Source: Euzebya pacifica (GTDB lineage: Bacteria > Actinomycetota > Nitriliruptoria > Euzebyales > Euzebyaceae). Taken from it: DNA of 64,000 nt. The notes beneath the pieces are model-generated. The model worked only from the letters and a program-made list of their open reading frames with translations. It was not told the DNA's origin and did no database searches. The translations under genes and the position numbers were made by a program. The stretch lies in NCBI RefSeq assembly GCF_003344865.1, contig NZ_CP031165.1:3043910-3107909 (forward strand). The letters run 5' to 3'. This document shows, in pieces, positions 34,960 to 54,415 of this stretch; the stretch's first letter is position 1, and each line of letters starts with the position of its first letter.

Positions 34960-35022
34960 CTCGCGACACCAGCCATTGTACGAATCCAAACAACTACTGC
35001 ACGGACGCATGTCGAGTTGGAG

Positions 35023-35041
35023 TAAGGGGAACCTAACCTTA
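35023..35041 (+). promoter_or_regulatory. IdeR/DtxR-type iron box before the FecCD operon
   Basis: The 19-mer matches the consensus TwAGGTwAGsCTwACCTwA at 16 of 19 positions by eye. It ends two bases before ATG 35044. With iron present, an IdeR-like repressor bound here would shut the transporter operon. No regulator gene is in the window. Confidence 0.8.
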
Positions 35042-35043
35042 GG

Positions 35044-37130: not shown

Positions 37131-37996
37131 CCGCATCTCCCTCGACCGTGAGTCACCGACGCCAGGCCGACGGACGGGCCGGTTCGGCCGACGTCGTCGC
37201 GTCCGACGGACCGCTCGTCGCCAAGGGGGTGTCGCTGGCCTACGACGACCGCCTCGTCGTTGACGGGCTCGACGTCGTCGTGCCCGGCGGTCGGGTGACC
37301 GTGATCGTGGGCGCCAACGCCTGCGGGAAGTCGACGCTCCTGCGTGGCCTTGCCCGGCTGCTCCGCCCGTCGTCGGGGACCATCCACCTGGACGGGCAGG
37401 ACATCCATCGGATGCCCACCAAGGAGGTCGCACGCCGGCTCGGCCTGCTGCCGCAGGCCCCGATCGCGCCGTCGGGTATCACGGTGGCCGACCTGGTCGG
37501 ACGGGGCCGCCATCCGCACCAGCGCTGGTACGCGCAGTGGAGCGATGCCGACGAGGCGGCGGTGGGCGAGGCCCTGGCCGCCACCGGGACCACTGACCTT
37601 GCCGACAGGGCCGTCGACGAGCTGTCGGGTGGGCAGCGGCAACGTGTCTGGATCGCGATGGCCCTGGCGCAGCAGACCCCCGTCATGCTGCTGGACGAAC
37701 CGACGACCTACCTGGACCTGGCCCACCAGATCGAGGTGCTGGACCTGCTCGCGGCCCTGAACCGGACGCATGGCCGAACGGTGGTCCTGGTCCTGCACGA
37801 CCTGAACCAGGCGGCACGGTACGGCGATCACCTGATCGCGATGCAGGGCGGGCGCATCGTCGTGGAGGGCCCACCGTCGGCGGTCGTGACCGCCGAGCGC
37901 GTCGAGGAGGTCTTCGGGTTGCCGTGCCGGATCATCACCGATCCGGTGTCGGACACGCCCCTCGTGGTCCCGCTCGGCGCCGCCCACCGGAGGTAG
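37127..37996 (+). CDS. Iron-siderophore ABC transporter ATP-binding protein
   Basis: A 289-residue FecE/FepC-type ATPase that powers ferric-siderophore import. Walker A is GANACGKST (62-70), the signature is LSGGQRQR (about 166-173), Walker B VMLLDEPT (about 186-193), then a D-loop and the switch histidine in LVLHDLNQA. An N-terminal extension of about 28 residues is not part of the domain. It is the last gene of the plus-strand iron unit; the converging reductase gene begins 25 bp beyond. Confidence 0.93.
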   Translation: MTASPSTVSHRRQADGRAGSADVVASDGPLVAKGVSLAYDDRLVVDGLDVVVPGGRVTVIVGANACGKSTLLRGLARLLRPSSGTIHLDGQDIHRMPTKEVARRLGLLPQAPIAPSGITVADLVGRGRHPHQRWYAQWSDADEAAVGEALAATGTTDLADRAVDELSGGQRQRVWIAMALAQQTPVMLLDEPTTYLDLAHQIEVLDLLAALNRTHGRTVVLVLHDLNQAARYGDHLIAMQGGRIVVEGPPSAVVTAERVEEVFGLPCRIITDPVSDTPLVVPLGAAHRR

Positions 37997-38021
37997 GGGT
38001 GCGGCGCCGGGGGACGACCGG

Positions 38022-38819
38022 TCAGCGGGCCGTCGTCAACCGCCAGTAGGCAAGCAGCGACCGATGGGTCCCGGCCACACGGGCGGTCCGGGCCACCTCC
38101 CGGAGGGCGTCCACGGTTCGGTGCTCGGCAGCCGCCCAGACGAACACGTCGGGGGTCAGCCGCTCGGCTGCCAGGGCGTCCTCCAGCAGCGTGGTCGAAC
38201 CGGCAGGGGCCCCATTGCGGTACAGCCAGCGGACCTCTGCGTCCCCGGTGTCCAGCAGGGGCTGGCGTGTCGACGGGGAGTCGGTTTCAGCCAGGAGGAG
38301 CGCTGGCATGCCGGGCGGCCGGGCGCGGAGGGCCCTGCCGGCCGCTGGCGTGCCCGTCTCGTCGGCGCAGAGGACCCACCGATCCGCATCCGCTGGCGGA
38401 TGGAACGTGGTCCTCGGGCCCCAGATGGCCACCGGGTCCCCCGGTCGTGCACGGGCAGCCCAGGCAGAGCCGTCCCCCTCGTCGCCGTGCAGGACCATCA
38501 GGACGTCGAGCTCCGCGCGATCGGGTCGGTGGTCCCAGACCGTGTAGTAGGCGCCGACGGCCCGGTCCCGTGCCGGGGTGGCCGCGTGGGCCTCCCACGA
38601 GAAGGACTCGTCCACGGTGAGATCGGACCGGCCGGGTGGGGGCAGGAGGAGGTGGAAGAAGGCGTCGGGGCCGGGGAGGTCGAGGTCTGCGAGCGCCGGC
38701 CCGGTCAGGGTGACGCGGCGCAACGCCCGGTGCACGTCCTCTGCAGCCACCACCCGGGTCAGGAGCGTGCGGATCACCGGCTCGACCTCGGCGGATGTCG
38801 GTGTCGACACGGCCGTCAC
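38022..38819 (-). CDS. Siderophore-interacting protein (ferric-siderophore reductase)
   Basis: A 265-residue flavoprotein of the SIP/ViuB family. It has an N-terminal FAD-binding barrel (about 15-130) and a C-terminal SIP domain with RWVLCADETGTPAAGRAL, VFVWAAAEH and a final LLAYWR. These enzymes release iron by reducing ferric siderophores in the cytoplasm. The start GTG 38819 overlaps the binding-protein stop (GTGA), so the two genes are coupled and likely share the iron-boxed promoter at 40350-40363. Confidence 0.9.
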   Translation of the reverse strand: MTAVSTPTSAEVEPVIRTLLTRVVAAEDVHRALRRVTLTGPALADLDLPGPDAFFHLLLPPPGRSDLTVDESFSWEAHAATPARDRAVGAYYTVWDHRPDRAELDVLMVLHGDEGDGSAWAARARPGDPVAIWGPRTTFHPPADADRWVLCADETGTPAAGRALRARPPGMPALLLAETDSPSTRQPLLDTGDAEVRWLYRNGAPAGSTTLLEDALAAERLTPDVFVWAAAEHRTVDALREVARTARVAGTHRSLLAYWRLTTAR

Positions 38820-40327
38820 TGCTCGCAGGGAACCCGGGCGGAGGCCATGAAGGTGCACAGCTCGGTCGTGGGGACCTGCCACACCCCGTCGGCCCTGCCG
38901 AGGGTCCCGGTCTGACCTCGGTAGGCGGGACTGCCCCCGAACAGGACGTCGTAGGTGATCTCGGCGGTGTCGCCGTCCACGACGACGGCAGTGGGGTGCA
39001 TGGCGATCCCGCCGACCGCGTCCCCAGCCGACGCGTAGGCCTCCAGCGTCCCGCCGACCGCATCCGCGTCCTCGAGGTGCGCGCCCTTCTCGGCCGCTGG
39101 CGCAGTGGAGTCGAAGACCAGCGACCAGGCCGAGGCGGCCGCGGCCTGGTCGTCGTCCTCGAAGGTCACCGGCTCGGCCGTCTCGGCGCCGGCCTCCTCG
39201 TCGTCGACGGCAGCTGCGTCGGAGGAGGACTCGGCGAACGCCGACGGCGGGACTTCGGTGGCGGGGTCCCCGTCCACGGCGGCCTCGAGCTGGGGCACGA
39301 GGCTGTCCAGCAGCGCGGGCAGGCTCAGGAGGCTGCCGAAGGAGAAGGCGCCGGCGGTCTCGGTGTCGAGGAAGACCTCGCGGCCTTCCCGAACGGCGGT
39401 CAGGGTGTCCCGCAGGGCCATGTCGCGGATCGCGGCGTCGTCCTCGGGACCTGCGGTGACCCAGACGATGACGTCGGTGTCCAGCAGGTCGGTCTGCTCG
39501 GCGGAGAAGGACGCGTAGAACTGGTCACCGGCGATCTCGTCGTACACCTCGGGGGTCACGAAGCCCATGTCGGCCAGGAGGCGGGCGCGACCGTCCTCGC
39601 TGGCATAGGCACCGGGCTGCCCGTCGAACGCGAAGGCCACCGCTGCGGACGCCCCGTCGAAGGACGGGTGTTCCGCCCTGATGTCGGCCAGGCGAGCCTC
39701 GATGGCGTCCACCTGCTGCTCGGCCTCGTCGAGACGACCGATGGCCGCACCGATTCGCAGCGCGCGGTCCTGCCATGGGGTGCCGTACGCGACGAAGTCA
39801 GCGGACTGCGCGACCGTCGGGGCGATCGCGCTCAGCAGGCCGTAGTCCTGGTCGGTCATGCCCGAGGACACCCCGACGATCAGGTCGGGGTCCAGCGCCG
39901 CGATCGCCTCGAAGTCCAGCTCCGCGGGGGAGAGGACCGCAGGCTCGGCATCGCCGAGTGCCTCGACCGCCCAGGGCCACACGGCGAACGGCTGCTCGCC
40001 GTACCAGTCGCGGATGCCGACCGGCACCACGCCGAGTGCGAGCAGGTCGTCCTGGTCGTTGAAGCCGACCGACACGACCCGTTCGGGCTCCGACGGCACG
40101 ACCGTCTCGCCGAACTGGTGCTCGATGGTGACCGGGAACACCGACTCGGTGTCCTCGGCGGGCACCGAGCCCGTGGCCGTCGAGCTTGCGGACGAGGAGG
40201 ACGAAGACGACGAGGAGTCGGCGGAATCCTCGGAGGTTGACGCGGAGGTCCCGCATGCGGCCACGAGGACGGCCAGCAGGACGGCCACGATGGGGGCGGG
40301 GACACGGCGGAAACGAGATGCACTCAT
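38816..40327 (-). CDS. Iron-siderophore binding lipoprotein fused to an Mtb12-like domain
   Basis: A 503-residue lipoprotein. The signal peptide ends LVAAC (lipid at Cys25) and is followed by a Ser-rich linker (about 36-52). Residues about 65-345 are a FecB/FhuD-type periplasmic-binding domain (ERVVSVGFNDQDDLLALGVVPVG, LDPDLIVGVSSG) that delivers ferric siderophore to the permease. An acidic Ser/Ala-rich linker then leads to a C-terminal domain of about 110 residues (about 392-503). Its pattern of FDSTAPAAEKGAHLED, VVVDGDTAEITYDVLFGG and DGVWQVPTTELC resembles the mycobacterial Mtb12 low-molecular-weight antigen. That fusion is unusual. The stop overlaps the SIP start. An iron box lies 23 bp upstream of ATG 40327. 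Confidence 0.87.
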   Translation of the reverse strand: MSASRFRRVPAPIVAVLLAVLVAACGTSASTSEDSADSSSSSSSSSASSTATGSVPAEDTESVFPVTIEHQFGETVVPSEPERVVSVGFNDQDDLLALGVVPVGIRDWYGEQPFAVWPWAVEALGDAEPAVLSPAELDFEAIAALDPDLIVGVSSGMTDQDYGLLSAIAPTVAQSADFVAYGTPWQDRALRIGAAIGRLDEAEQQVDAIEARLADIRAEHPSFDGASAAVAFAFDGQPGAYASEDGRARLLADMGFVTPEVYDEIAGDQFYASFSAEQTDLLDTDVIVWVTAGPEDDAAIRDMALRDTLTAVREGREVFLDTETAGAFSFGSLLSLPALLDSLVPQLEAAVDGDPATEVPPSAFAESSSDAAAVDDEEAGAETAEPVTFEDDDQAAAASAWSLVFDSTAPAAEKGAHLEDADAVGGTLEAYASAGDAVGGIAMHPTAVVVDGDTAEITYDVLFGGSPAYRGQTGTLGRADGVWQVPTTELCTFMASARVPCEQ

Positions 40328-40349
40328 GCACCCGTTGTACCGTATGAAG

Positions 40350-40363
40350 TTAGGTTTACCTAA
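40350..40363 (-). promoter_or_regulatory. Iron-box core before the binding-protein/SIP operon
   Basis: TTAGGTTTACCTAA, read on the plus strand, is a palindromic DtxR/IdeR core: 12 of 14 positions match the first 14 bases of the DtxR consensus. It lies in the 37-bp gap between the CBS gene stop and ATG 40327, with TACGGT and TACAAC -10-like hexamers just downstream on the minus strand. Confidence 0.65.
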
Positions 40364-40364
40364 A

Positions 40365-40805
40365 TCAGTCCGACGGTGTGGCCGCGGAACCGAGGTCGGG
40401 GTCCGCCGTCAGGGCCGCGAGCAGGCAGTCGGTCGTCGTGATGATGCCGACCAGCCGGCCGTCCTCGACCACGGGGACGGCGCTGATGTGCCGCGACATC
40501 ATCACGCGAGCGGCATCACCGACGCTTGCGTCAGGACCGATGTGGTGGACGGATGCGGCCATGACCGACGCGACGTCCCGGCCGTGGCCGGACACCGCCT
40601 TCACCCCGTCGAGGGATCCGCACTCGGCGAGGGATCCCTCGTCGATCCGCACGTCGCGGTCGCTCACGATGCCGACGAGCATCCCCTCCTGCACGACGGG
40701 GAGGTGGCGGATGCCGTTGCGCTGCATCGTCGCCCGGGCCTGGTGGACCTCGGTGGTCGGCTCGACCACCACCGGGTCGTTGGCCATCCACTGCCGCACG
40801 GTCAT
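40365..40805 (-). CDS. CBS-domain pair protein
   Basis: A 146-residue protein consisting almost only of two CBS motifs (a Bateman module): RHLPVVQEGMLVGIVSDRDV and ISAVPVVEDGRLVGIITTTD. Such modules bind adenosyl ligands such as AMP or ATP and regulate partners or act as stand-alone sensors. ATG 40805 has a GGAGG site. The gene lies just upstream of the iron-binding lipoprotein on the same strand but is separated by an iron-box promoter. Confidence 0.88.
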   Translation of the reverse strand: MTVRQWMANDPVVVEPTTEVHQARATMQRNGIRHLPVVQEGMLVGIVSDRDVRIDEGSLAECGSLDGVKAVSGHGRDVASVMAASVHHIGPDASVGDAARVMMSRHISAVPVVEDGRLVGIITTTDCLLAALTADPDLGSAATPSD

Positions 40806-40879
40806 CGCTGCGTCGCCTCCCTCGGCGTCGGTAGGATCGATCGGCTGGAGTATGGCCCATCGGTGGGGGAGGACGTTGC

Positions 40880-40960
40880 GTGTCGGGGCTGGAGGAGGAT
40901 CTCGCCGCCGCGCGTGGCGCCGGCGCGGTGGGCGCACTGCTCCGGAACGCGGACGGGTGA
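40880..40960 (+). CDS. Possible 26-residue small ORF
   Basis: GTG 40880 is preceded by a good ribosome site (GGGGGAGG, 40865-40872) with a seven-base spacer. The predicted peptide is short and ordinary, with acidic-Ala-Gly composition (SGLEEDLAAARGAGAVGALL). It sits in the 313-bp gap 40806-41118 between two divergent genes. The rest of that gap holds no other gene I can support. It may be a small protein or a remnant of a longer gene. Confidence 0.25.
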   Translation: MSGLEEDLAAARGAGAVGALLRNADG

Positions 40961-41118
40961 CCGGAGCGTGTCGGGACCGGCGGTCCCGATGTGGGTGCCG
41001 TGAACGCTCGTTGAAGAACGGCGCAGGAGCCGGCTACGGGGCGGATTCGGTCCCGACCGCTGGGTAGAACCGCAGCGCCCCGATCACCCGCAGTCCCCGG
41101 ATCACGAGGTCCTCTTCA

Positions 41119-41838
41119 GTGCTGTCCCCGACCAGCCGCATCCGTGCGTTCGCGTCCCGTCTCGTCTGCATCGTCACGCTGACCGTCGTGTCGATGGTGT
41201 CGCTGACGGCAGGCGCCGCTGCCCACTTCGCCACGATCGGGTTCAGCGACATCACCCTCGGCGAGGGCGGAATGGCCTACGACCTGTGGCTGGACCCCTA
41301 CCACCTGGCGACCCTCCTGCCCCTGGATGCCAACGACAACACGATCGTGTCCGCGGCAGAGGTGCAGGAAGCCGGCGACCTGCTGACAGCCCTCGCCGAG
41401 GACGCGGTCGTCGTGGAGCAGGACGGCACCGCCGTCCCGGTAGCGGCCGGCACCCCCCGCCTCGTCACGGGCGAGGACGTCCCGCAGGACGTGGCCACGA
41501 TCGACGCGGACTTCCCCCTCGTCGCCTTCCACCTCACCGCCGACGGCCCCCTTGACCCGAGCCGTACCTCCATCACCTACGGCCTGCTGCTGATGGACGC
41601 CGCCGAACCCCACCGCAACGTCGGACGACTGCGCGGCCCCGCCGGCACCCAGCCCATCGAGTTCGCCCCCGACCACAACCGCCTGGTCCCCGCCGACCTG
41701 GTCGGCGTCCTGAACGCCCCGTCCTCCCCCCGGCTCGCCGCGGCTGCCCCGATGGGCGTCAGCGCGGTCCTCCTGCTCCTCCTGATTCTCCTCATCGCCC
41801 GCCGCCGCGGGCACGCCCCACGTCCCGCCACCACCTGA
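41119..41838 (+). CDS. Exported membrane-anchored protein, HupE/UreJ-like ectodomain with EF-hand-like loop
   Basis: A 239-residue protein with a signal peptide (about 1-35), a mature start AHFATIGFSDI, an outside domain and a C-terminal helix (about 210-228) followed by a basic ARRRGHA tail, so it should be anchored with the domain outside. DANDNTIVSAAE (70-81) fits a calcium-binding EF-hand loop. The order His-start, lipophilic strand, EF loop resembles the outer domain of HupE/UreJ_2 proteins, but the multi-helix metal-transport part is missing. The GTG at 41119 is the likely start. The stop overlaps the ribosome site of the giant gene 14 bp downstream, which suggests coupled expression. 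Confidence 0.6.
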   Translation: MLSPTSRIRAFASRLVCIVTLTVVSMVSLTAGAAAHFATIGFSDITLGEGGMAYDLWLDPYHLATLLPLDANDNTIVSAAEVQEAGDLLTALAEDAVVVEQDGTAVPVAAGTPRLVTGEDVPQDVATIDADFPLVAFHLTADGPLDPSRTSITYGLLLMDAAEPHRNVGRLRGPAGTQPIEFAPDHNRLVPADLVGVLNAPSSPRLAAAAPMGVSAVLLLLLILLIARRRGHAPRPATT

Positions 41839-41852
41839 AGGTCTGCCACACC

Positions 41853-44800
41853 ATGCGTTCCCTCCTCGCCCTCCTCGTCGTTGCCCTGCTGGGCAGCGTC
41901 CTCGCTGCGCCAACACCGGCCGTGGCCCAGGAGCCTCGTGCCGGCACCGACGTCGGCCCGTCCGACACCACCGGCCCCAGCAGGACCCAGGACATCGGTC
42001 CCGCGGTGCCGTACGCCTTCGTCCGCAACGGCGTCGTGCAGGCCAACATCACCATGACGGGTGGTGCCGGCAACAACACGGCTGGCACCTTCGAGGCGGG
42101 GGCCATCGCCGACCTGTATCCCCGTGACACCGATCGCTACGAGGGGCTGGACTGGACCGAGACGGTCCTTTCCGCCGACCGGGTGACCTCCGCCGGCGCG
42201 GCCGATGACTGGAACCGCGACGGCGAACAGCTCGCGCTCGACGACGTCAACGTCGTGGGGGACACCATCGTGGCGGATGGCTGCATCGACGCGAGCGACA
42301 GCGTCGCCGGATGCACCGACGACCTCTCGATCAGCGTGGCCTACGAGGCGCTGGCCGAGGTCCCGATCGTCAAGCAGACCATCACCGTCACCAACGACGG
42401 TGCGGCCGCGGTGGACCGCACCTTCGGCTACATCGCCGATCCGGACACCAACTCGGGCGGGTCGACGGACGCCTCCATCGCCCCCAACGGCGCGACCAAC
42501 CCCGGTTTCGTGCAGATTCCCGCCGGCGGCTGGGAACGCAACGTCCTGTACAACGGCGCCCTCTTCGCCGACGGCGTCCCAGCGCACGGCATCGCGTGGT
42601 TCGAGGACGAGCCCTACGCGCTGTACGCCGGCAGCAACTTCATCGCCTCGGCGTTCTGGGACCTGTCGGTGCCGGCCGGCGGCAGCGCCGAGCTGAGCTG
42701 GTACCACATCGTGGAGTACCCCACCGACGGGCCCGATGTGGCGGACGCCATCGTGCAGCTGGCCGCAGACATCCCGCAACACGACGACGACGTCATCGAG
42801 ACCGACGAGCGGATCACCGGTCGGGTCGCCGACGTGGACGGCGCCGCGGTCGCCGGGGCCACCGTCGTCGTCCGCTCAGTTGGCGCGGAGGAGGTCGATC
42901 GGGCCACCACCCGCGCGGACGGCACCTACACCCTGCGGGTCCCCCCGGGCACCTACACCCTGACCGCGTCGAAGCTGGGCCACGGCGACGGATCCGGATC
43001 CGTCGAGGTTCCCGCCGACGACGGGATCACCGAGTACACCGTCGACCTCGAGCTTCCGCCCGGTCGCGCCCACGCCGGTGATGGCCTCGTCGTCGACGGT
43101 CCCGTCCGCCAGGGCCAGCCGACCGACCTGACCATCGTCAACGACCGCCTGGCCATGGTCGTGTCCAACGGCACCATCGACGGCCAGCTCGAACCCGTGT
43201 CGCTCGGCAAGCCGCTGGACTGGGCCGTGCACGGGCAGGGCGACGAGATCGACTGGCTGCACCTGCCGTGGATCGACGAGGCACGTCCCACGGGTGAGGA
43301 CTCCTACCAGGCTCGCACCGTCCGGTCGGAGGTCGTGGAGGTCGTCGACGAGGACGACCTGGACCGGGCGGCCATCCGCACCACCGGCTTCTACGACCCC
43401 GACGGCAACGGGGTCCGGGACGACGCGATCAGCGTGGACGTCGAGACCGTCTTCGAGATCGAGACCGGCGCCGACCACATCACCGCCGAGTCGAGCTTCA
43501 CCAACACCGGCACCGATCCCGTCACCCTCTGGATCGGCGACGTGATCGACCACGACGGCGCCGGGCAGCACAGCTTCGTGCCCGGTGTCGGCGTCGTCAC
43601 CCACAACGACGGGCTGGACTACCAGCCGACCGAACCATGGGTCGCCCAGACCGGTGCGTCCAGCGGTGAGTACGGATTCGTCTACACCGACCTGGCCGCA
43701 GCCGACCTCCAGGTCGTCGCGTCCGGGCGGTTCGTGACCACCCAGACCGAGGTCACCATCCCGGCCGGCGGGACCCACACCCTGAGCCGGCGGCTCGTCG
43801 CCGTCGACCGCGGTGACGCCCAGGAGCCCTTCGAGGCCTTCCGCGACGCCTACGACGACCACCTCGCCGAGCTCACCGGCGTGGAGATCGAGCTGGACCC
43901 GGGTGCCGAAACCCTGACGGCGGGACAGGAGACGACCGCCACCGTGGTCGTCCGCAACGTCGGCGAGGATCCGATCACCGGCGTCGACGTCCGGCTGAGC
44001 AGCGCTGGCGGAGGCATCACGGTCCTCGGCACGGCGCTCCGCACCATCGACCTGGCCGCCGGCGAATCCAGCAGCCAGGAGTGGACCCTGCGTGCCGACG
44101 CCGGGGGGCGGGCGCAGATCACCGCCACCGTGGTCCACGACGGACGGGAACGCACGCGCACCGGCCGCATCTTCGTCAACGGGCCGGGCTGGTACTGGGG
44201 GGACAACCACAGCCACTCCATCCACAGCGACGGCTCCGGGACGATCGCAGAGAACGTCGCGTCCGCGCGCGCTTACGGCCTGTCGTGGTTGACCGCCACC
44301 GACCACAACACCCTCAGCCAGGCCAGCGACATGGCGGCGGAGAACCGCGATGACTTCGTGGCCCTCGTGGGCCAGGAGATCACCTGTGGCGACGGGCACT
44401 CGTTGGGCTACGACATCGGTACGACCAACGCCGACCTCATCGCGTGCGGCACCGGTCAGTCGCGCATCGACGACACGAACGCCGCGAACGGCGGCCGAGG
44501 CTTCTTCTACATCGCCCACCCGTACTACCCGGGGCTGGAGTGGGACGACTGGGGCGTTGACGGCCTGACGGGCATCGAGGTGTGGAACGGCTTCTACCCG
44601 CCGCTGCACACCGTCAACAACGGCGCGTTCGCCCGCTGGGACGAACGACTTCGGGCCGGCGAGACCATCCTCGGCATCGCCAACTCCGACGCCCACAACT
44701 CCGGCAAGATCGGCAGCCCGCACATCCGGGCGTGTCTGCCGCAGCTGGCCGCCGACCCGATCGTTGAGGTCCAGCAGTCCGGCTACTTCTACGGATCCAA

Positions 44801-47800
44801 CGGTCCCGACATCGCCATGACCGTCGACGGCGTCCCCATGGGCGGCACCGTCCACGTGCCGGCCACCGGCAGGACCGTCGAGGTCGTCGTCACGGCACGT
44901 GTGGACCACGACGTCGCCGACGTCCTGCTGCACGTCAACGGCGATGTGGCCCGCACCTATCCCGGCCAGGCGCCGGTGACGGGGCCCCAGACGCTGTCGC
45001 ACACCCTCGACGACCGGACCGGTGCGGTCACCTTCACCGTCGACGTCGAGCCCGGCGACTTCCTGCGCGCCGAGGTCATCGCCTGGGGCGACGAGGCTCG
45101 CGACGTCGCGCAGGACTACCGCGCCTTCGGCTTCACCAACCCGGTCTTCGTCGCCGAGGGCGACCCGGCTTCCGACACCACACCGCTGGAGGCCTGCACC
45201 GTCACCGTCGACGAGCCCGGCCCCGAGGAGCCCTATCGGCTCGAGGAGAACTTCGACGACATCCCCGACGGCGAGCTGCCGGACGGCTGGAACCCGGCGG
45301 TGGGCACCTGGCGGGTGGAGGACGGCCGCTTGGTCGGTGGCACCACGACGGAGGCCATCGATCGCCTGACCTTCGGTGAGCACCGTGAGAACTTCCGCTT
45401 CGAGGCCACGATCCAGTTCCGCGAGCGGGCCAACGCCAGCCGCTGGACCGGCCTGATCGTCGACATCGCCCCGGACGGCACCGTGCCGTGGTGGCACGCG
45501 GTCATGCGCAGCGGCTCAACCGCTGGCAACGGCCTGGAGTGGGCCACCCGCACCGCCTCCAACGGCTGGAGCGTCCCCACCAGCAGCGCCGCGCCGTTCG
45601 ACGTCGGCGTCGGCAACGACGTCCGCTTCGCCGTCGAGGTCCGCGGCAACCGGGGGATCCTCTTCCTCGACGGGCAGGAGGTCCTCCGCTACGGCGGGAT
45701 CGAACGCTCCGACGCCGGCGTCCTCGGCTTCGTGCTGGACAAGGCGGTCGTGGAGTTCGACGACATCGTCGTGACCGACATCAGCCCGTTCGAGCCGCTG
45801 ACCCGAGGTTCGGCGCTGGGCACCGTCGCCATGCGTGGCAACAGCGACGCGGCACCCGAGAACACCCTCGCGGCGCTTGAGCAGGCCGTCAGGACCAACG
45901 CCAGGTTCTCCATCGTCGATGCCCGCCTGACCGCCGACGGTGACCCGGTGCTGATGGCCGACGAGACCGTCGACCGCACCACCGACGGCACCGGCCCGGT
46001 CGGATCCCTCACGACCGCCGAGGTCACCGCGCTCGACGCCGGCTCGTCGTTCTCCGACGCCTACGCCGGCCAGCCCGTCCCGACCCTCGCCGAGGCGCTG
46101 GACCTCGCCGACGCCCTGGTCGTCGACGTCCGTGACGACACGGCCGCGGCCGCGGCCGTTGCCGGCCTGCTCGACAGCCGCGACGCCGGCCCCGACACCC
46201 TCGTGCTGGTGGACGACGACACGACCGCACAGGCAGTCCGCGACGCGTCGACCGAACCGCTGCAGCTGGTCCTGGACCTGCGCGGCACGACCGTCGTCGC
46301 CGCGGAGGTCACCGACGGCCCCGACGACATCCGCGCCGTCCTGCTGGATCCGTCGACCCCTGCCGATGTCATCGCCGCGCTCGACGACAGGGGCGTGGGG
46401 ACGATCCTCGCCGCCGAGACCCCCGAAGAATGGCTCGTGGCCGACCGCAACGGTGCGGCCTTCGTCGCCTCCACCGCGCCGGGCCGCCTGGCCGGCGTCC
46501 TCGAGGGCGCCGCGCAGGACAGCCTCGGCTTCGCCGACGACGCCGGGCCCCTCGTCGTCGCCCACCGGGGATGGTCCCGGGTTGCCCCGGAGAACACCCT
46601 GGCCGCGGTGGCCTCGGGGATCGCCGCGGGCGCGGACATGGTCGAGATCGACGCGCACTCCACGCTGGACGACGTCCCCTACGTGCTGCACGACCAGACG
46701 CTGGACCGCACCACCGACCGGTCCGGCGACCTCGCCACCCAGACCGCCGCCCAGGTCGACGGCGCCGACGCAGGCTCGTGGTTCTCACCGGCCTACGCGG
46801 GACAGCACATGCCGTTGCTGGCCCAGGTCCTGGACCTCATCGACGGCTCCGGCACCACCCTGCTGCTGGAGGTCAAGGGTCCCGAGGACCTGCTCGAGGT
46901 CAGCGGGATGGTCGACCTGATCGAGGCGCGGGGCATGACCGACCAGGTCGTGCTGCAGTCCTTCTCCACTGACGTGCTCCAGCACGCCCGCAGCGTGTCG
47001 GACGACCTGGTGCTCGGCCTGCTCACCGGTGGCTTCGGCAGCGACCCCGTCGCCCAGGCGCAAGCCCTCGACGTGGCCTACTTCAACCCGTCGTGGAACA
47101 GCATCGCCGGCGACACCAGTCCCGTGGCGGACCTGCACGCTGCCGGAGTGCGGGTCGTGCCCTACACCGTCAACAGCGCCGCCGACTGGGACCGGATGGT
47201 CCGGGCCGGCGTCGACGGCGCCATCACCGACCGTGCGGGCGACATGGTCGGCTGGCGCGATGCGCACCGACTCGGCATCGAGCCCGCCGTCCTCGTGTCC
47301 CTGACCGCCCCAACCGTCGACGAGGGCGACACCGCGACGAGCGAGGCATCGGCAACGGTGTCCATCGACCGGCCGCTGTCCGCCCCGGTCACCCTGACCG
47401 TCGACACGGTCGACGACACCGCCACCGCGGGCGAGGACTACCTCGCGTTGACCGGACTCGCCGTGACGATCCCGGCCGGGGAGACCCAGGCGTCGGTCCC
47501 TGTCACGATCACCGGTGACGACGTCGTGGAGGGCGACGAGACGGTCACGATCACCGTGACCGCCATCGACGGCGCCACCGCGGAGGGTGGCTTGTCCACC
47601 GCGTCGCTGACCATCATCAACGACGACGCCACCGAGCTGTCGACGGCCGACGTGCAGGTGATCGAGGGCGACACCGGTACCACCGTGGCCCTCGTCCCCC
47701 TCAGCCTGACCGCCCCCGCCGACGCCGACGTGGTCTTCGACGTCGTGGCCGTCCCCGACACCGCGACGCTGGCCGACGACGACTACACAGCGCCCGCTGC

Positions 47801-49787
47801 CACCGGGACCATCCCGGCCGGCACCCTTTCGGGCACTGTCGAGCTCGTCATCAACGGCGACACCGGCCCCGAGGAGGACGAGACCGTCGAGATCCACCTG
47901 TCGAACCCGACAGTGGCCACCCTCGGGGACTCCGTGTCAATCGTGACCATCCGCAACGACGACGCGGCCGTCCGGGTCGCTGATGCCTCGGCGGTCGAGG
48001 GTGACGCACCCGAGACCGCGACCTTCGAGTTCGCCCTCGAGCTGGACCACCCCAGCGCGGTCGACGTCGAGGTGGCGGTCGCCACGGGCGCCACCAGCGG
48101 CCCCGGAGGCGCCACGGCCGGCGAGGACCACACCGACGTCGACACGGTCGTCAGGATCCCCGCCGGGCACACCTCCGCGACCGTGGAGGTCCCCGTGATC
48201 GGCGACGACCTCGACGAGGACGACGAGACGCTCCTCCTCGTCGTGACCGACCCCGTCGACGGCGACGGCACGACCGTCGCCGACCCGACCGCAACCGGCA
48301 CGATCGTCGACGACGACGTGACCATCGTCAGCGTCGACGACGCCGCGGCCACCGAGGGCGAGGACCTGTCCTTCACCGTCCGGGTCGACGCCGACCCGAT
48401 CACCGCCGGCCTCCAGCCGGTGCCCCGGGACGCCAGCGTCGCCTGGTCCAGCGCCGACGGGACGGCCACGGCAGGGGAGGACTACACCGCCGACGGCGGG
48501 AGCCTCCAGCTGCCCAGCGGCACGACCACTGCCACCCTGCTCCTGCCCACGGCCACCGACACCACCGATGAGCCCGACGGCGAGACCGTGACGGTCACGC
48601 TCGCCGACGCGATCGGCGTCGTCATCAGCGACGGCACCGGCTTGGGCACGATCCTGGACCCGGCCGACACCCCCGATCCCGGCAGCGGCGGTGGCGGGTC
48701 CACACCGCCCACCGAGCCCACCGACCCGTCCGAGCCCACCGACCCGGAGCCAACCGACCCGTCCGAGCCCCAGGAGCCCGGCGAGGTCGGGGACGACGAG
48801 GTCAGCCGCACCCACGGCGCCACCCGCGTGGAGACCGCGGTCAACGCCAGCCGCGACCACTGGCCGACGGCGTCGACCCGCACCAACGACCTGAGCGGTC
48901 GTGCCGGCGGGGTGGTCCTGGCCCGTGCGGACGCCTACCCCGACGCCCTGGCCGGCGGCGCCCTGGCCGCCTCCATCGACGGTCCGTTGCTGCTGACCAA
49001 CGGCGATGCCCTTGACCCGATGGTGGAGGAGGAGATCGTCCGGCTGGGGGTCGAGGACGTCATCGTGCTCGGAGGCGACGCGGCCATCGGTCGGGCCGTG
49101 GAGGACCGACTGGTCGAGCTCGGCCTGGACGTGGAGCGCATCGCTGGGGCCAGCCGCTGGGACACCGCTGCGCTGGTGGCCGACCGCGTCGGCCTGCCCG
49201 AGACGGGCGAGGTCGTCGTGGTGCTCGGCGACCACCCCGAGGCTGCTCGCGCCTGGCCGGACGCGCTGTCCGCCGGCGCGCTGGCTGCCTCACCCGATCG
49301 GCTGCCCGTGCTGCTGACCGCCGGCAGCAGCGTCCCCGCCCCGACCATGGATGCCCTCCAGGACCTGGGTGCCCGTCGGGTCGTGCTGATCGGTGGCCCC
49401 GCGGTCATCGACAGCGAGGTCGAGGCGGCGCTCGTCGGCACCGTCGGCGAGGTCGTCCGGCTCGCAGGGCGCGACCGCTACGCCACCTCGGTCGCCGTGG
49501 CCCGCGACGCCTTCGCCCGGTTCGCCGACGACCCCGACGGTGAGTCGATCGACGTCGTGTTCGCGACCGGTGCGGACTATCCCGACGGCCTGGCCGCCGG
49601 CGCCGTCGCCGCACGCCGTGGGGCCCTGGTACTGCTCGTGCCGCCGTCGGACCTGGCAGGGGACTCGCCGACGCTGGCGTTCCTCCGGTCGATCGCCGAC
49701 CGCGTCGACAGCGGGGTGGTCCTCGGTGGCCCGGGTGCGATCGACGAGTCGACACGGGCCCTGCTGGAGGAGGCCATCGCCGGCTGA
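41853..49787 (+). CDS. Giant secreted multidomain surface protein (PHP, LamG-like, GDPD, Calx-beta, CW_binding_2)
   Basis: A 2644-residue protein with a signal peptide (1-26). Domains in order: an unassigned beta-rich region (to about 310); a carboxypeptidase-regulatory-like domain (about 316-390); a second beta-rich region (to about 660); a CARDB-like domain (about 677-776); a PHP metallohydrolase of the CehA/McbA kind (about 778-955, HxH at 786/788, TDHN near 817, SDAH at the end); a LamG-like fold (about 1128-1311); a degenerate GDPD (about 1318-1563); an intact GDPD (about 1567-1803, His1571); four Calx-beta repeats (about 1813-2270); a Pro/Asp/Glu/Ser linker; three CW_binding_2 repeats (about 2316-2644). 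It is probably a cell-wall-bound enzyme releasing phosphate from phosphodiesters, with calcium-dependent beta modules. Substrates are not known. GAAGG lies before ATG 41853. Confidence 0.85.
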   Translation: MRSLLALLVVALLGSVLAAPTPAVAQEPRAGTDVGPSDTTGPSRTQDIGPAVPYAFVRNGVVQANITMTGGAGNNTAGTFEAGAIADLYPRDTDRYEGLDWTETVLSADRVTSAGAADDWNRDGEQLALDDVNVVGDTIVADGCIDASDSVAGCTDDLSISVAYEALAEVPIVKQTITVTNDGAAAVDRTFGYIADPDTNSGGSTDASIAPNGATNPGFVQIPAGGWERNVLYNGALFADGVPAHGIAWFEDEPYALYAGSNFIASAFWDLSVPAGGSAELSWYHIVEYPTDGPDVADAIVQLAADIPQHDDDVIETDERITGRVADVDGAAVAGATVVVRSVGAEEVDRATTRADGTYTLRVPPGTYTLTASKLGHGDGSGSVEVPADDGITEYTVDLELPPGRAHAGDGLVVDGPVRQGQPTDLTIVNDRLAMVVSNGTIDGQLEPVSLGKPLDWAVHGQGDEIDWLHLPWIDEARPTGEDSYQARTVRSEVVEVVDEDDLDRAAIRTTGFYDPDGNGVRDDAISVDVETVFEIETGADHITAESSFTNTGTDPVTLWIGDVIDHDGAGQHSFVPGVGVVTHNDGLDYQPTEPWVAQTGASSGEYGFVYTDLAAADLQVVASGRFVTTQTEVTIPAGGTHTLSRRLVAVDRGDAQEPFEAFRDAYDDHLAELTGVEIELDPGAETLTAGQETTATVVVRNVGEDPITGVDVRLSSAGGGITVLGTALRTIDLAAGESSSQEWTLRADAGGRAQITATVVHDGRERTRTGRIFVNGPGWYWGDNHSHSIHSDGSGTIAENVASARAYGLSWLTATDHNTLSQASDMAAENRDDFVALVGQEITCGDGHSLGYDIGTTNADLIACGTGQSRIDDTNAANGGRGFFYIAHPYYPGLEWDDWGVDGLTGIEVWNGFYPPLHTVNNGAFARWDERLRAGETILGIANSDAHNSGKIGSPHIRACLPQLAADPIVEVQQSGYFYGSNGPDIAMTVDGVPMGGTVHVPATGRTVEVVVTARVDHDVADVLLHVNGDVARTYPGQAPVTGPQTLSHTLDDRTGAVTFTVDVEPGDFLRAEVIAWGDEARDVAQDYRAFGFTNPVFVAEGDPASDTTPLEACTVTVDEPGPEEPYRLEENFDDIPDGELPDGWNPAVGTWRVEDGRLVGGTTTEAIDRLTFGEHRENFRFEATIQFRERANASRWTGLIVDIAPDGTVPWWHAVMRSGSTAGNGLEWATRTASNGWSVPTSSAAPFDVGVGNDVRFAVEVRGNRGILFLDGQEVLRYGGIERSDAGVLGFVLDKAVVEFDDIVVTDISPFEPLTRGSALGTVAMRGNSDAAPENTLAALEQAVRTNARFSIVDARLTADGDPVLMADETVDRTTDGTGPVGSLTTAEVTALDAGSSFSDAYAGQPVPTLAEALDLADALVVDVRDDTAAAAAVAGLLDSRDAGPDTLVLVDDDTTAQAVRDASTEPLQLVLDLRGTTVVAAEVTDGPDDIRAVLLDPSTPADVIAALDDRGVGTILAAETPEEWLVADRNGAAFVASTAPGRLAGVLEGAAQDSLGFADDAGPLVVAHRGWSRVAPENTLAAVASGIAAGADMVEIDAHSTLDDVPYVLHDQTLDRTTDRSGDLATQTAAQVDGADAGSWFSPAYAGQHMPLLAQVLDLIDGSGTTLLLEVKGPEDLLEVSGMVDLIEARGMTDQVVLQSFSTDVLQHARSVSDDLVLGLLTGGFGSDPVAQAQALDVAYFNPSWNSIAGDTSPVADLHAAGVRVVPYTVNSAADWDRMVRAGVDGAITDRAGDMVGWRDAHRLGIEPAVLVSLTAPTVDEGDTATSEASATVSIDRPLSAPVTLTVDTVDDTATAGEDYLALTGLAVTIPAGETQASVPVTITGDDVVEGDETVTITVTAIDGATAEGGLSTASLTIINDDATELSTADVQVIEGDTGTTVALVPLSLTAPADADVVFDVVAVPDTATLADDDYTAPAATGTIPAGTLSGTVELVINGDTGPEEDETVEIHLSNPTVATLGDSVSIVTIRNDDAAVRVADASAVEGDAPETATFEFALELDHPSAVDVEVAVATGATSGPGGATAGEDHTDVDTVVRIPAGHTSATVEVPVIGDDLDEDDETLLLVVTDPVDGDGTTVADPTATGTIVDDDVTIVSVDDAAATEGEDLSFTVRVDADPITAGLQPVPRDASVAWSSADGTATAGEDYTADGGSLQLPSGTTTATLLLPTATDTTDEPDGETVTVTLADAIGVVISDGTGLGTILDPADTPDPGSGGGGSTPPTEPTDPSEPTDPEPTDPSEPQEPGEVGDDEVSRTHGATRVETAVNASRDHWPTASTRTNDLSGRAGGVVLARADAYPDALAGGALAASIDGPLLLTNGDALDPMVEEEIVRLGVEDVIVLGGDAAIGRAVEDRLVELGLDVERIAGASRWDTAALVADRVGLPETGEVVVVLGDHPEAARAWPDALSAGALAASPDRLPVLLTAGSSVPAPTMDALQDLGARRVVLIGGPAVIDSEVEAALVGTVGEVVRLAGRDRYATSVAVARDAFARFADDPDGESIDVVFATGADYPDGLAAGAVAARRGALVLLVPPSDLAGDSPTLAFLRSIADRVDSGVVLGGPGAIDESTRALLEEAIAG

Positions 49788-49802
49788 CCGCCGCACCCAC
49801 AA

Positions 49803-49830
49803 GCTGGCCGGGCCCACGGGGCCGGCCAGC
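49803..49830 (+). terminator. Strong hairpin after the giant surface gene
   Basis: Thirteen-base arms GCTGGCCGGGCCC and GGGGCCGGCCAGC pair with one mismatch around a short loop. It sits 15 bp beyond the stop with no T tract. It probably ends the surface transcript and perhaps that of the converging flavoprotein. Confidence 0.55.
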
Positions 49831-49890
49831 GCGGTGCATGACGATTCAGCACGTCAACCCTGATCGACAGGTGACGGACGGTCGGTCGGG

Positions 49891-50880
49891 TCAGCTCGCC
49901 ATCGCGGTGACCGCCCGTTGCGTCTCCTCGGCCATCACGTCGGCGACGATGGCCGCGGCGGCCTGCACACCGGCGGCTGCCGCGCTGATCACCTGCGCCT
50001 TCAGGTCAGTCACGTTGCCCGCCAGCCACACACCCGGCACCGACGCCGCACCCACGGGGTCGGAGGGATACGCCTTCCCGATCACGACACCGAAGGCCTC
50101 GACGTCCTGGGGGGACACGCCCAGCGCGTCGAGGACGGGGGACCGCGCGACCATCCGCCCGTGTGCCACCAGGGCATCGCACGGGACCACCCGGCCGTCG
50201 GCCAGCCGGACGCCCGTCAGGACGTCGTCCTCGACAACGAGGCCGACCGCCGGGCCGTCCCACACGGGCACCCCTCGTGCCGCGAGGCGCTGGAGGTCGT
50301 CCGCCGATGCCCCCAGGCCGCCGTGATCGACCACCGCGACGTCGTCGCTCCACTGGCGCCACAGGAGGCCGCCGTGCACACCGGCGGGGGACGTGCCGAG
50401 CACCACGATCCGGCGGTCCTGCACCTCCCAGCCGTGGCAGAACGGACAGTGCAGCACGTCTCGGCCGAACCGGGCCTCGATCCCCGGCACGACGGGCAGC
50501 TCGTCGCGCAGCCCGGTCGTCACGAGGAGTCGACGGGCACGCAAGCGCCGCCCGTCCTCCAGGACGACCTCGAAGAGGTTGTCGGGCTGCCGTCGGGCCG
50601 TGGTGGCCACGCCAACCACGACCTGGCCCCCGTAGCCCTCCAGCTCCCGGCGGCCCAACGCGAGGAGCTCCGTCGGCGGCCTCCCCTCGTGGCCGAGGAA
50701 GCTGTGGACCCCTGCGGCCGGGGCGTTCCGTGGTTGGCCGGCGTCGACGACGAGGACGGCTTGCCTCGCCCGTGCCAGGGTGGTTGCCCCGGCCAACCCG
50801 GCGGCACCACCGCCGATCACGAGGACATCCAGGACCGACGACGTTGATGGGTGGGGATCGGTATCGATGTGGGTGTTCAT
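49891..50880 (-). CDS. Thioredoxin-reductase-like FAD oxidoreductase with CPFC site
   Basis: A 329-residue pyridine-nucleotide flavoprotein. It has an FAD fold GGGAAGLAGATT (23-34), a redox pair Cys145-Pro-Phe-Cys148 where TrxB has CATC, an NAD(P) fold around GTSPAG and a C-terminal GNVTDLKAQVISAAAAG. Relatives with CPFC-HGWE are annotated as thioredoxin reductases or related disulfide reductases; no thioredoxin is adjacent. ATG 50880 is clear. A low-confidence short frame ends over this ATG. Confidence 0.88.
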   Translation of the reverse strand: MNTHIDTDPHPSTSSVLDVLVIGGGAAGLAGATTLARARQAVLVVDAGQPRNAPAAGVHSFLGHEGRPPTELLALGRRELEGYGGQVVVGVATTARRQPDNLFEVVLEDGRRLRARRLLVTTGLRDELPVVPGIEARFGRDVLHCPFCHGWEVQDRRIVVLGTSPAGVHGGLLWRQWSDDVAVVDHGGLGASADDLQRLAARGVPVWDGPAVGLVVEDDVLTGVRLADGRVVPCDALVAHGRMVARSPVLDALGVSPQDVEAFGVVIGKAYPSDPVGAASVPGVWLAGNVTDLKAQVISAAAAGVQAAAAIVADVMAEETQRAVTAMAS

Positions 50881-50952
50881 GGAACGACGGTGCCGCAGAC
50901 GTGCTGCCCACGCACGCAGTCTTGCAGTTCTGGCAAGGCGGATCGGTCGAGG

Positions 50953-51627
50953 TCAGTCCGGCGCGACCACCTGCAGGGTGGGCCAGTCGAAGCCGAGGCT
51001 GCGGCGGACCCCCTCGATGCCGACCCCGTCCTCGCCGCGGGTCTCCAGCCGGAGCCCGCTCCCGTGATCGGCCCACCCGCCGACGTGGACGGTGCGCACA
51101 CCGGCGTTGTGGCCGAGGGCCGTCGCGGCGACGAGCTGCTCGTCGGTCATGCAGAAGGCGACGACGACGGTGTCGGGGAGGTAGCGGGTCGGTGGCTCCT
51201 CGTGCGGATCCATCATGCTGATCGGGGCATCGGCGAGGGCCCCGAGGCGGCGGGAGATCCGCTGCCACTGATCCATCCTGAGGGCGCCGGCGCCGATGAG
51301 GTGCAGCGGCACCCCCGCGTGCGCAAGGAGGACGTCGGTGACCCAGCGCTGCATGCCGACCGGGGCCACCAGGAGGACTGGTTCCCCACGGGCTGCCCGG
51401 GCCCACGCGGTGCCGAGGGCCCACCCGACCTGCAGGGCCACGGGACCGCTGAGGGCGGTCACGCCGACAGGCGGCCACCACGGCCACCACTCCGGACGTA
51501 TCGGGCGTCGGGGTTGCCAGACGTCGACGGTGTAGCGGGCACGCGGGCCCGTCCGCTCGTAGCGGTGTTCGAGCTCGTCGAACGCCCTGGCGAGGTGGAG
51601 GCGGAGTCCTCGAACGGCCTTGACCAT
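50953..51627 (-). CDS. DnaB-like protein lacking a P-loop, function unknown
   Basis: A 224-residue protein. The central stretch (about 95-150: RGEPVLLVAP, then GVPLHLIGAGALRMDQWQRISRRLGALADAPISMMD) follows the strand-helix pattern of the replicative DnaB helicase C-terminal domain, including the RLRxGxLxxxxWxRIxxAxxxLAxAPxxIDD-type segment. The Walker A GKT sequence is missing (ALQVGWALG instead), so ATP binding is doubtful. A helical N-terminus (VKAVRGLRLHLARAFDELEH) precedes it. ATG 51627 is favoured; upstream ATGs at 51657 and 51675 also fit. Its role is unknown. Confidence 0.45.
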   Translation of the reverse strand: MVKAVRGLRLHLARAFDELEHRYERTGPRARYTVDVWQPRRPIRPEWWPWWPPVGVTALSGPVALQVGWALGTAWARAARGEPVLLVAPVGMQRWVTDVLLAHAGVPLHLIGAGALRMDQWQRISRRLGALADAPISMMDPHEEPPTRYLPDTVVVAFCMTDEQLVAATALGHNAGVRTVHVGGWADHGSGLRLETRGEDGVGIEGVRRSLGFDWPTLQVVAPD

Positions 51628-51686
51628 TCGGGGAACGCTACATCGTGGGTGTGTCATCCCCCTGCCCGGGGGCATAGGTTGATCCC

Positions 51687-51998
51687 ATGGCAGAACCAGC
51701 GGTCATCCATGACGACGCGAACCATCGCTACACCGTGACACTCGACGGCGAGGTGGCCGGACTGGCGGTCTACCACGACCGTGGGGGCCGGCGGCTGTTC
51801 GTCCACACCGAGATCGCCGACGAGCACGAGGGCAAGGGGCTGGGCAGCGTCCTCGTGCGGGGCGCGCTGGAGGGGACCGAGCGCGATGGCCTGAAGGTGG
51901 TGCCGATCTGTCCGTTCGTGGCCGGCTGGCTGGAACGGCATCCCGAGATGCTCGGCGTGGTCGACGAGGACCGCCGTCGCCTCATCGAGTCCGACTGA
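51687..51998 (+). CDS. Small GNAT N-acetyltransferase (YjdJ type)
   Basis: A 103-residue compact acetyltransferase of the YjdJ/GNAT_2 group. It shows the FVHTEIADEHEGKGLGSVLVRGAL segment with the acetyl-CoA loop EGKGLG and the final VPICPFVAGWLERHPE signature of this small family. The acceptor is unknown. It is divergent from the DnaB-like gene and its last 17 bp overlap the 3' end of the DedA gene on the other strand. Confidence 0.9.
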   Translation: MAEPAVIHDDANHRYTVTLDGEVAGLAVYHDRGGRRLFVHTEIADEHEGKGLGSVLVRGALEGTERDGLKVVPICPFVAGWLERHPEMLGVVDEDRRRLIESD

Positions 51999-52659
51999 CC
52001 GTCCCGTCGGTCCAGGGCAGCCGACCGCGCCGGCGCCACACGTGGCGACCGAGCAGGACGACCGCCACGACCGCTGCGGCCAGGTTCATCCAGTCGGAGT
52101 ACTGACCCGCCGTGGTCCATCGCTCACCGACGACCGCACCGATCCACAGCCACACGGCGTTCCAGATCCCGCTGCCGAGCGCGGTCAGCAGTCCGAAGCG
52201 CACCCGACCCATGCCCTCGGTGCCGGCAGGCAGGGAGATGACGCTGCGCACGAACGGCACGAACCGTCCGGTCAGGACGCTGAGGGTGCCGTGGCGGGTG
52301 AACCAGTCGCTGGCCCGGTCGAGGTCGTCCTCCTCGGTCAGTGGTAGCCGGGTGAGCGCGGAGCGGGCGCGTTGGTGCCCGAGCCGCCGCCCGAGCTCGT
52401 AGTACACGTAGGCGCTGACGGTCGATCCGACCGTCGCCGCCAGCAGCACGACCCAGAAGGACAGCTCACCGCTCGCAGTCAGGTATCCAGCGAACGGCAG
52501 GACCACTTCGCTGGGGACCACGGGAAGGACGTTGTCCAGCGCCAGAAGGAAGGCAACCCCGACGGGTCCGCCCGTCGCGACGACGTCGACGACCCAGCCG
52601 ACGAGGCCGGTGAAGTCCGAGGGGCTGGCGGAGGCAGCGAAGAGGGCGGTCGTGGTCAC
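51982..52659 (-). CDS. DedA family membrane protein
   Basis: A 225-residue integral membrane protein with about five helices and the DedA hallmark GRFVPFVRSVISLPAG. DedA proteins help move undecaprenyl phosphate or phospholipids across the membrane. The start is GTG 52659. The C-terminus overlaps the GNAT gene by 17 bp tail to tail. It is divergent from the DUF2142 gene over 115 bp. Confidence 0.92.
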   Translation of the reverse strand: MTTTALFAASASPSDFTGLVGWVVDVVATGGPVGVAFLLALDNVLPVVPSEVVLPFAGYLTASGELSFWVVLLAATVGSTVSAYVYYELGRRLGHQRARSALTRLPLTEEDDLDRASDWFTRHGTLSVLTGRFVPFVRSVISLPAGTEGMGRVRFGLLTALGSGIWNAVWLWIGAVVGERWTTAGQYSDWMNLAAAVVAVVLLGRHVWRRRGRLPWTDGTVSRTR

Positions 52660-52774
52660 GAGGCCACGCCTACCCGGGGACCGACGTCACGGAACCCGGC
52701 GCAGCGGCATCCTCGCCCGACGGGACATGGACCGACGTTGCCCCCGCAGGCCGACGTGCTCGGACAATGGGGGC

Positions 52775-54415
52775 ATGGACCGCAGGGGGTATCGGGGATC
52801 GGCAGGTGTGCTCGCGTGGCTCGGCTACGCGCTGTTGCTCGTCGGCTGGCTCGCGGCGACCCCACCGTTCCAGGCGCCCGACGAGGTCAGCCACTACGTC
52901 CGCACCTGGGGGCTTGCCGATGGGCAGGTGCTCGGGCTGGCGCCCCAGCCGCCCACGCCACCAGCCGACGTCGCCAACGACCCGGCGCGACTGGCCAGCT
53001 TCTGGTGGGCCTTCGAGACCACCACCTTCGTGTCGATGCCCGAGCACCTGGTGCCCCAGAGCCGCGACTGCGCACGCAACGCCGCCGAACCAGCCACCTG
53101 CGTGGACGTGGCACCCGAGACCCGACAGGACCGGCGCAACGTGTCCACCAACACCGGGACCACGTCGCCGACGTCGGTGGCGGCGCCTGCAGCGCTCGTG
53201 CGACTGGGTGGCAGCGACACCGAGGCGCTGACCTGGGCGCGGGTCGGAGAGGTGCTGGGGGTGCTCGCCACCCTCGGTGCGACCCTGCTGGCGCTGGCGC
53301 CGCTGGGTCGTCGGGTCCTGCCCGGCCTGGCGCTCGGCCTCACCCCCATGGCCGTGTACCTGGGCGCGGTGCTGAACCCCAGCGGGCAGGAGGTCTGGCT
53401 CACCCTCGCCTGCCTGGCGCTGTCGTGGCGAATGCTGCACTCGGGTGGATCCCGGTGGTGGGTGGCCGCCGCGGCAGGGACGGCGTTGCTGCTGCCACTC
53501 GGTCGGCAGCCCGGTGCCGTGTGGGCGCTGATGTCGCTGGGCGCGGCCATCCTGCTGCAGCCCGACGTCGTTGCCGCCGTGCGTACCCGCTGGTTCTCGC
53601 TGCTGGCGTGGGGTAGCGCCTACCTCAGCGGCCTGGGGCTCGGGATCCTCTGGAACGCCCGGACGCAGGTCGACACCCCGGTCGCTGCGGACAACCTCGG
53701 TGGGGCGTCGGCCGAGCTCGTCGGCCGGATCCCGATGCTCCTGCGGCATGCCGTCGGCGAGTTCAACCTGTTCGAGTTCCCCCTTCCCCGAACGATGACG
53801 GTCGGCTGGGTCCTCCTGGTGATCGTGGTCGTCGCCTGGGGTACGTTCGGCCCGCCGGTCCCGACGGCGACAACTCGGGTGGTGGGTCGGCTCGCGGCCC
53901 CCTGGGTGGTCCTCGGGACGCTCGCATTCGCGGCAGCGTTCTGGGTGTTCAGCTACCAGCACACCGGCTTCGACCTGCAGGGCCGGCACCTCCTGCCCGG
54001 GCTGGTGCTCGTCCCGGTGGTCGCGATCATGGCCCGACCGCTGCCCCCGTGGTTGGGCAGCACCATGGCCATCGCGGCCGCGAGTGGGCAGGCCATCGCC
54101 TGGTTCCTCGCGGCACGACGGTTCGCCGTGGGGACCAGCGGGCCGTTGGTGTTCTGGACCGACGCCGCGTGGGACCCCGCCGGGGGGTGGGTGCCCTGGA
54201 TGGTGCTGGTCATCACCGGAGTCGTGCTGCTCGCGGCCGCGGCCCTGCCGGGAGCCTCCCGGAACGTCAGCCCAGCCGGCGCAGCAGGTCGGTTTGGTCG
54301 CGGGACCCCACGGGGTCGCCGTCCCGCAGCAGCTTCAGCGTCTCGGCCTGCACCAGGTCGTTGGCCGGCGTGGGGATCCCGTGGAGCCGTCCGATCAGGG
54401 CGATCTCCCCGTTGA
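52775..54415 (+). CDS. DUF2142 family membrane protein, C-terminus overlapping the next gene
   Basis: A 546-residue polytopic membrane protein. The first outside loop has PFQAPDEVSHYVR, the DUF2142 signature, and about ten to eleven helices follow. Relatives are glycosyltransferase-like membrane proteins found with surface polysaccharide genes; the function is unknown. ATG 52775 starts the first helix. The last helix ends near 54250, and the remaining tail of about 49 residues is low-complexity Arg/Gly/Pro and antisense to the ketopantoate-reductase gene (149-bp overlap). This suggests that the original stop near 54270 was lost. Confidence 0.8.
   Translation: MDRRGYRGSAGVLAWLGYALLLVGWLAATPPFQAPDEVSHYVRTWGLADGQVLGLAPQPPTPPADVANDPARLASFWWAFETTTFVSMPEHLVPQSRDCARNAAEPATCVDVAPETRQDRRNVSTNTGTTSPTSVAAPAALVRLGGSDTEALTWARVGEVLGVLATLGATLLALAPLGRRVLPGLALGLTPMAVYLGAVLNPSGQEVWLTLACLALSWRMLHSGGSRWWVAAAAGTALLLPLGRQPGAVWALMSLGAAILLQPDVVAAVRTRWFSLLAWGSAYLSGLGLGILWNARTQVDTPVAADNLGGASAELVGRIPMLLRHAVGEFNLFEFPLPRTMTVGWVLLVIVVVAWGTFGPPVPTATTRVVGRLAAPWVVLGTLAFAAAFWVFSYQHTGFDLQGRHLLPGLVLVPVVAIMARPLPPWLGSTMAIAAASGQAIAWFLAARRFAVGTSGPLVFWTDAAWDPAGGWVPWMVLVITGVVLLAAAALPGASRNVSPAGAAGRFGRGTPRGRRPAAASASRPAPGRWPAWGSRGAVRSGRSPR

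Follow-up and report, generated by a model that had tools for sequence, protein, structure and literature searches.

The enzymes that gave the CehA/McbA family its name cleave carbamate esters (PMC8292978), and the substrates of Bacillus GlpQ include glycerol-phosphate teichoic acids (PMC7086022). In C. difficile, CWB2 repeats are reported to anchor proteins to the anionic polymer PSII (PMC4973711). The combination of a LamG-like domain with a GDPD domain is likewise a widespread secreted module that is already known, and the novelty of the protein described here does not lie in that half. What sets this protein apart from the loci searched is the presence on the same chain of a CehA/McbA-type PHP metallohydrolase. 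It is encoded by a single gene in the window (the whole stretch of 64,000 nucleotides of Euzebya pacifica DNA that was analysed), and it is a real and unusual protein, a variant of the known secreted LamG-GDPD wall enzymes.

Gene, operon and domain layout

The features of the locus are as follows (window coordinates, strand, description and basis).

40893..49878, no strand: segment with the two-gene cassette, missing at the collinear locus in a congener (comparison with L210 of genome G002)
41119..41838, +: 239-aa gene without an assigned family (sequence; GC3 0.92)
41853..49787 including the stop codon, +: gene for the 2644-residue mosaic protein (ATG-start ORF)
41853..41930, +: signal-peptide-like N-terminus, residues 1-26, ending PTPAVAQ (sequence inspection)
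41931..42797, +: domain A, residues 27-315, probably beta-rich (low-confidence structure model)
42813..43049, +: CarboxypepD_reg, carboxypeptidase regulatory-like domain PF13620, residues 321-399 (Pfam, 55.5 bits)
43050..43892, +: domain B, residues 400-680, probably beta-rich (low-confidence structure model)
43917..44129, +: NPCBM_assoc/NEW3-CARDB-like Ig-type domain, residues 689-759 (PF10633, 25.3 bits, cut-off 24.4)
44187..45152, +: CehA/McbA-type PHP metallohydrolase, residues 779-1100 (NCBIfam CehA_McbA_metalo, NF038032)
45261..45773, +: LamG-like domain, residues 1137-1307 (3keto-disac_hyd, PF06439)
45792..46406, +: GDPD1, residues about 1314-1518, catalytically dead (profile and alignment)
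46563..47237, +: GDPD2, residues 1571-1795, intact (Pfam PF03009)
47259..48647, outer limits approximate, +: four Calx-beta repeats (Pfam)
48807..49751, +: three CW_binding_2 (CWB2) repeats at 48807-49103, 49137-49424 and 49458-49751 (Pfam)

The single reading frame of 2644 residues that the initial annotation had placed at 41853-49787 proved exact, on the + strand. Its GC content at the three codon positions (GC1/GC2/GC3 0.72/0.51/0.93) holds along the full length and is like that of the neighbouring genes, indicating that the frame is a real gene; it lies on a 5.80-Mb contig of a 6.37-Mb genome in two contigs. The 239-aa gene precedes it on the same strand with a gap of 14 bases, and the two therefore probably form one operon. 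The 239-aa protein carries a hydrophobic signal-like segment at its N-terminus and a second hydrophobic segment at its C-terminus, has no match in Pfam or NCBIfam and gave no homologue in a search of plasmids; it is a possible membrane partner of the giant protein. The neighbouring genes encode FecCD permeases, a periplasmic binding protein, a redox enzyme, a GNAT protein and a CBS-like protein, with no phosphate-uptake genes among them. The region upstream of the operon contains three loose matches to a PHO box against 4.2 expected, which is not above chance. A perfect 7-bp inverted repeat (CGGGACC-GGC-GGTCCCG, about 40970-40992), also upstream of the operon and inside the segment that the congener lacks, could be a terminator, an operator or a scar.

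Domain scans recovered every part that had been named from the sequence, namely the PHP domain, the LamG-like domain, two GDPD domains, four Calx-beta repeats and three CW_binding_2 repeats, and added a CarboxypepD_reg domain, a NEW3/CARDB-like domain and two N-terminal domains of about 280 residues that had been missed. The LamG-like segment, scanned alone, matches 3keto-disac_hyd (28.7 bits, cut-off 26.8), so that its description was apt as to the concanavalin-like fold and this is its formal family. The Calx-beta profile aligns with four tandem stretches (91.9-105 bits) in which the acidic motifs are visible, and the CW_binding_2 profile with three tandem stretches (145 bits in all, each above the cut-off). 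Together with the signal-like N-terminus, the three CWB2 repeats support the predicted secretion and wall anchoring of the protein.

Domains A and B gave nothing above the cut-off in Pfam or NCBIfam, and BLASTP similarity between the two is absent. Outside the regulatory and Ig-type domains, no homologue of either was found in 296 Actinomycetota genomes, a search in which few candidates were scored per genome and which gave one marginal stretch at E = 0.006. No convincing homologue was present among 72,556 plasmid records, and a contig scan by exact 8-residue patterns gave none. Single-sequence structure models of the two domains have pLDDT values of 37 (A) and 41 (B), too low for use, and a Foldseek search with the latter, low-confidence model returned no match at E < 0.001.

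Catalytic residues of the PHP and GDPD domains

The PHP domain matches NF038032 with 144 bits (curated cut-off 80) over profile positions 1-314 of 315. Its site is complete (H786, H788, H818, E842, H849, H889, E909, D946 and H948), these ligand columns being the ones that are invariant in a 22-sequence alignment of the mosaic protein and 21 relatives. The domain thus lies above the cut-off of the CehA/McbA family and carries its conserved residues; the characterized members of the family are carbamate hydrolases. The initial view of both enzyme families as acting on phosphate esters is therefore not borne out, given the carbamate ester cleavage by the named CehA/McbA enzymes (PMC8292978).

The Pfam GDPD profile scores 205.6 bits on the mosaic protein over two stretches, as had been proposed, but only one of the two domains appears to be a working enzyme. 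In GDPD1 the first catalytic histidine is replaced by M1327, the metal-binding glutamate by I1354 and the second histidine by A1369, and the E-x-K motif has become D-x-R (D1425 and R1427), just past the well-aligned region; the strong match is confined to the N-terminal ~95 residues. Since both catalytic histidines, the metal glutamate and the E-x-K motif are all replaced, GDPD1 is a dead enzyme of homologous fold. GDPD2 aligns with profile positions 1-242 of 244 of PF03009 (145 bits, cut-off 23.6) and keeps the H-R-G, P-E-N-T, E-x-D, H-D and E-x-K motifs (H1571, R1572, E1580, E1598, D1600, H1613, E1673 and K1675), with nothing lost in the catalytic columns that never vary across the aligned GDPDs. 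It also matches solved UgpQ-type enzymes over its full length (2pz0, E = 3e-30; 2otd, E = 2e-28). Judged by these residues, only GDPD2 of the pair is intact. Substrate binding by GDPD1 is a conjecture, and the domain could instead be decaying. In a tree of N-terminal GDPD halves, GDPD1 falls among LamG-linked GDPDs, and a sister relation to GDPD2 has a support of 0.0.

Relatives within the genus and in other bacteria

The mosaic protein is present in one of four species of the genus, the three others being without it. Congener G002 is collinear on either side (78-82% identity at the DNA level over window 34180-40892 and 49879-54827) and has ~970 bases in place of the 9.0 kb that hold both genes. 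The ~970 bases contain other small ORFs, one of them Clp N-domain-like by eye. No direct repeats of at least 9 bases flank the cassette, which could either have been gained in E. pacifica or lost in the congener.

The E. pacifica genome has CW_binding_2 matches in a large number of long ORFs, at least 155 in all, and such matches occur in only 2 of 14 control genomes; given its at least 155 matches, CWB2 is taken to be the standard anchor of this genome. The envelope of E. pacifica may be built largely on CWB2 proteins. A second protein of the same genome (L105) and one of a sister species (L020) resemble the mosaic protein in joining GDPD to CWB2 repeats, but are about 670 aa long, with one GDPD domain and without LamG, PHP or Calx-beta parts. 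The genome also encodes a 675-aa fusion of an endonuclease/exonuclease/phosphatase (EEP)-type domain with a GDPD domain (L104:11450-13474). Two further GDPD genes lie near this fusion (L104 4506-8375), in one of which, a 946-aa frame, the GDPD match covers the N-terminal half only.

When 84,980 species genomes were scanned by means of a LamG-like domain alignment, 80 named loci were kept, nearly all from Actinomycetota. LamG and GDPD stand on one chain in 77 of these 80 loci, mostly directly adjacent, and PHP is on the LamG-GDPD chain in none of the 80; single chains with LamG and GDPD were also found in four sampled Actinomycetota genomes. The Actinomycetota proteins (Occultella, Isoptericola, Micromonospora, Embleya and others) share with the mosaic protein the direct succession of a LamG-like and a GDPD domain, with identities of mostly 41-58% for LamG and, in the pairs measured, about 43-56% for GDPD2, but they have no PHP half and no dead GDPD1, and nothing in them matches its Calx-beta or CWB2 parts. 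The nearest LamG domains are those of Occultella and Isoptericola (57-58%), outside the mosaic protein's own order, suggesting horizontal acquisition or wide loss.

In Bacillota loci L191-L197, LamG and GDPD stand ~220 residues apart. Over this insert Pfam is blank in the four proteins scanned (L191, L192, L194 and L195), and profile comparison identifies it as the C-terminal part of a GDPD domain (probability 96.4%, E = 1e-9). The same insert occurs in a GDPD protein of the Acinetobacter indicus plasmid pB18-5 (L251:2333-4729, E = 7e-30), where the GDPD profile itself touches it (E = 1e-4). The degenerate insert is thus common to Bacillota and Pseudomonadota. The proteins of Bacillota (Paenibacillus, Clostridium and Ruminococcus) and of the Acinetobacter plasmid have the same succession of LamG, dead GDPD and live GDPD as the mosaic protein, from which they differ in having no PHP domain. 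What remains of the barrel in their degenerate domain is the C-terminal half, whereas GDPD1 keeps the N-terminal half, and the two show no resemblance. Since different halves are kept, common descent of the dead-live arrangement is not shown and independent decay is possible. The Paenibacillus protein (L194) is surface-anchored, as the mosaic protein probably is, by three C-terminal SLH wall-anchor repeats. An analogous two-enzyme surface protein of 1799 aa in Clostridium sp. MSJ-8 (L192:6706-12102) has the order calcineurin-like phosphoesterase, Laminin_G_3, LamG-like, degenerate GDPD and GDPD.

The reverse search covered 54 regions around Actinomycetota PHP matches, 52 of which gave a PHP ORF by profile, with the mosaic protein as a positive control; none of these 52 PHP loci has GDPD on the PHP ORF. 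Being absent from the 80 LamG-GDPD loci and the 52 Actinomycetota PHP loci, the PHP-GDPD fusion is unobserved in the material searched, and a literature search on the domain combination found no report. The suggestion that the domain order has no described match is borne out to the extent that no relative of the same order was found in the loci searched. These comparisons, drawn from a limited genome sample, do not amount to proof that the joining of PHP to GDPD is unique to this lineage.

Proposed function and alternatives

The protein is probably a secreted, non-covalently wall-anchored mosaic hydrolase whose two enzyme halves were joined in this lineage. By family analogy, the CWB2 trio would most likely tether the C-terminal end to an anionic polymer of the wall, with the Calx-beta repeats forming a calcium-stiffened stalk or spacer. 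LamG, GDPD1 and GDPD2 would act as one module, in which the LamG-like domain and dead GDPD1 may help to bind substrate while GDPD2, from its fold and catalytic residues, would release glycerol-3-phosphate by hydrolysing glycerophosphodiesters or the termini of glycerol-phosphate polymers. The PHP half, presumably carried on the orphan beta-rich domains A and B, could be a separate metallohydrolase acting on another, non-phosphodiester ester or amide-like bond, and PHP and GDPD2 may cooperate.

The initial annotation had proposed a surface-bound phosphodiester scavenger, in which PHP and GDPD would both act on phosphate esters; such an enzyme would degrade a polymer or a phospholipid headgroup as far as phosphate. 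Other families of the PHP type include phosphoesterases, and the solved chain nearest to the PHP domain, 3e0f, is titled 'Putative Metal-dependent Phosphoesterase', a weak match (E = 2.6e-4). The calcineurin-like phosphoesterase in a comparable place in the Clostridium LamG-GDPD protein and the joining of GDPD to an EEP-type hydrolase in E. pacifica itself also point this way. Carbamate ester hydrolysis by the characterized CehA/McbA enzymes (PMC8292978), the dead GDPD1 and the missing Pho-type context make such a scavenger unlikely, and nothing was found in support of the processive action ascribed to it.

Remodelling of the cell's own wall, with GDPD2 trimming a teichoic-acid-like glycopolymer rather than scavenging, would accord with the wall anchor on the same chain, with the binding of C. 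difficile CWB2 to an anionic polymer (PMC4973711) and with the activity of GlpQ on glycerol-phosphate teichoic acids (PMC7086022). A protein missing from congeners is a poor fit to a core wall function, however, and GDPD2 is nearest to UgpQ-type solved enzymes, so that this role is judged quite improbable. A recently assembled surface protein under weak selection, its enzyme parts incidental, might be expected from a genome with so many CWB2 matches, from the dead GDPD and from the occurrence in one species of four, but is judged very improbable in view of 2,644 open codons of typical GC3 and complete catalytic residues in both PHP and GDPD2.

A bolder form of the favoured wall-anchored mosaic hydrolase, advanced here only tentatively and with little expectation that it is correct in full, is a two-step surface degrader. 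In this scheme PHP would strip a substituent or caps off a glycerol-phosphate polymer or a lipid headgroup, GDPD1 would serve as a captured-substrate or allosteric domain, and GDPD2 would cut the phosphodiester thus exposed. If it is true, the dead-beside-live GDPD arrangement seen in three phyla would be a general device for handling substrate that has no name as yet, with domains A and B as new families of binding domains.

Domain shuffling as such is ordinary in CWB2-rich bacteria. The recurring, unannotated degenerate GDPD of LamG-GDPD proteins in other phyla offers a case in which the retention of a pseudoenzyme next to its active partner can be tested, and the linkage of PHP to a phosphodiesterase on a wall-anchored chain may hint at the class of natural substrates of CehA/McbA enzymes.
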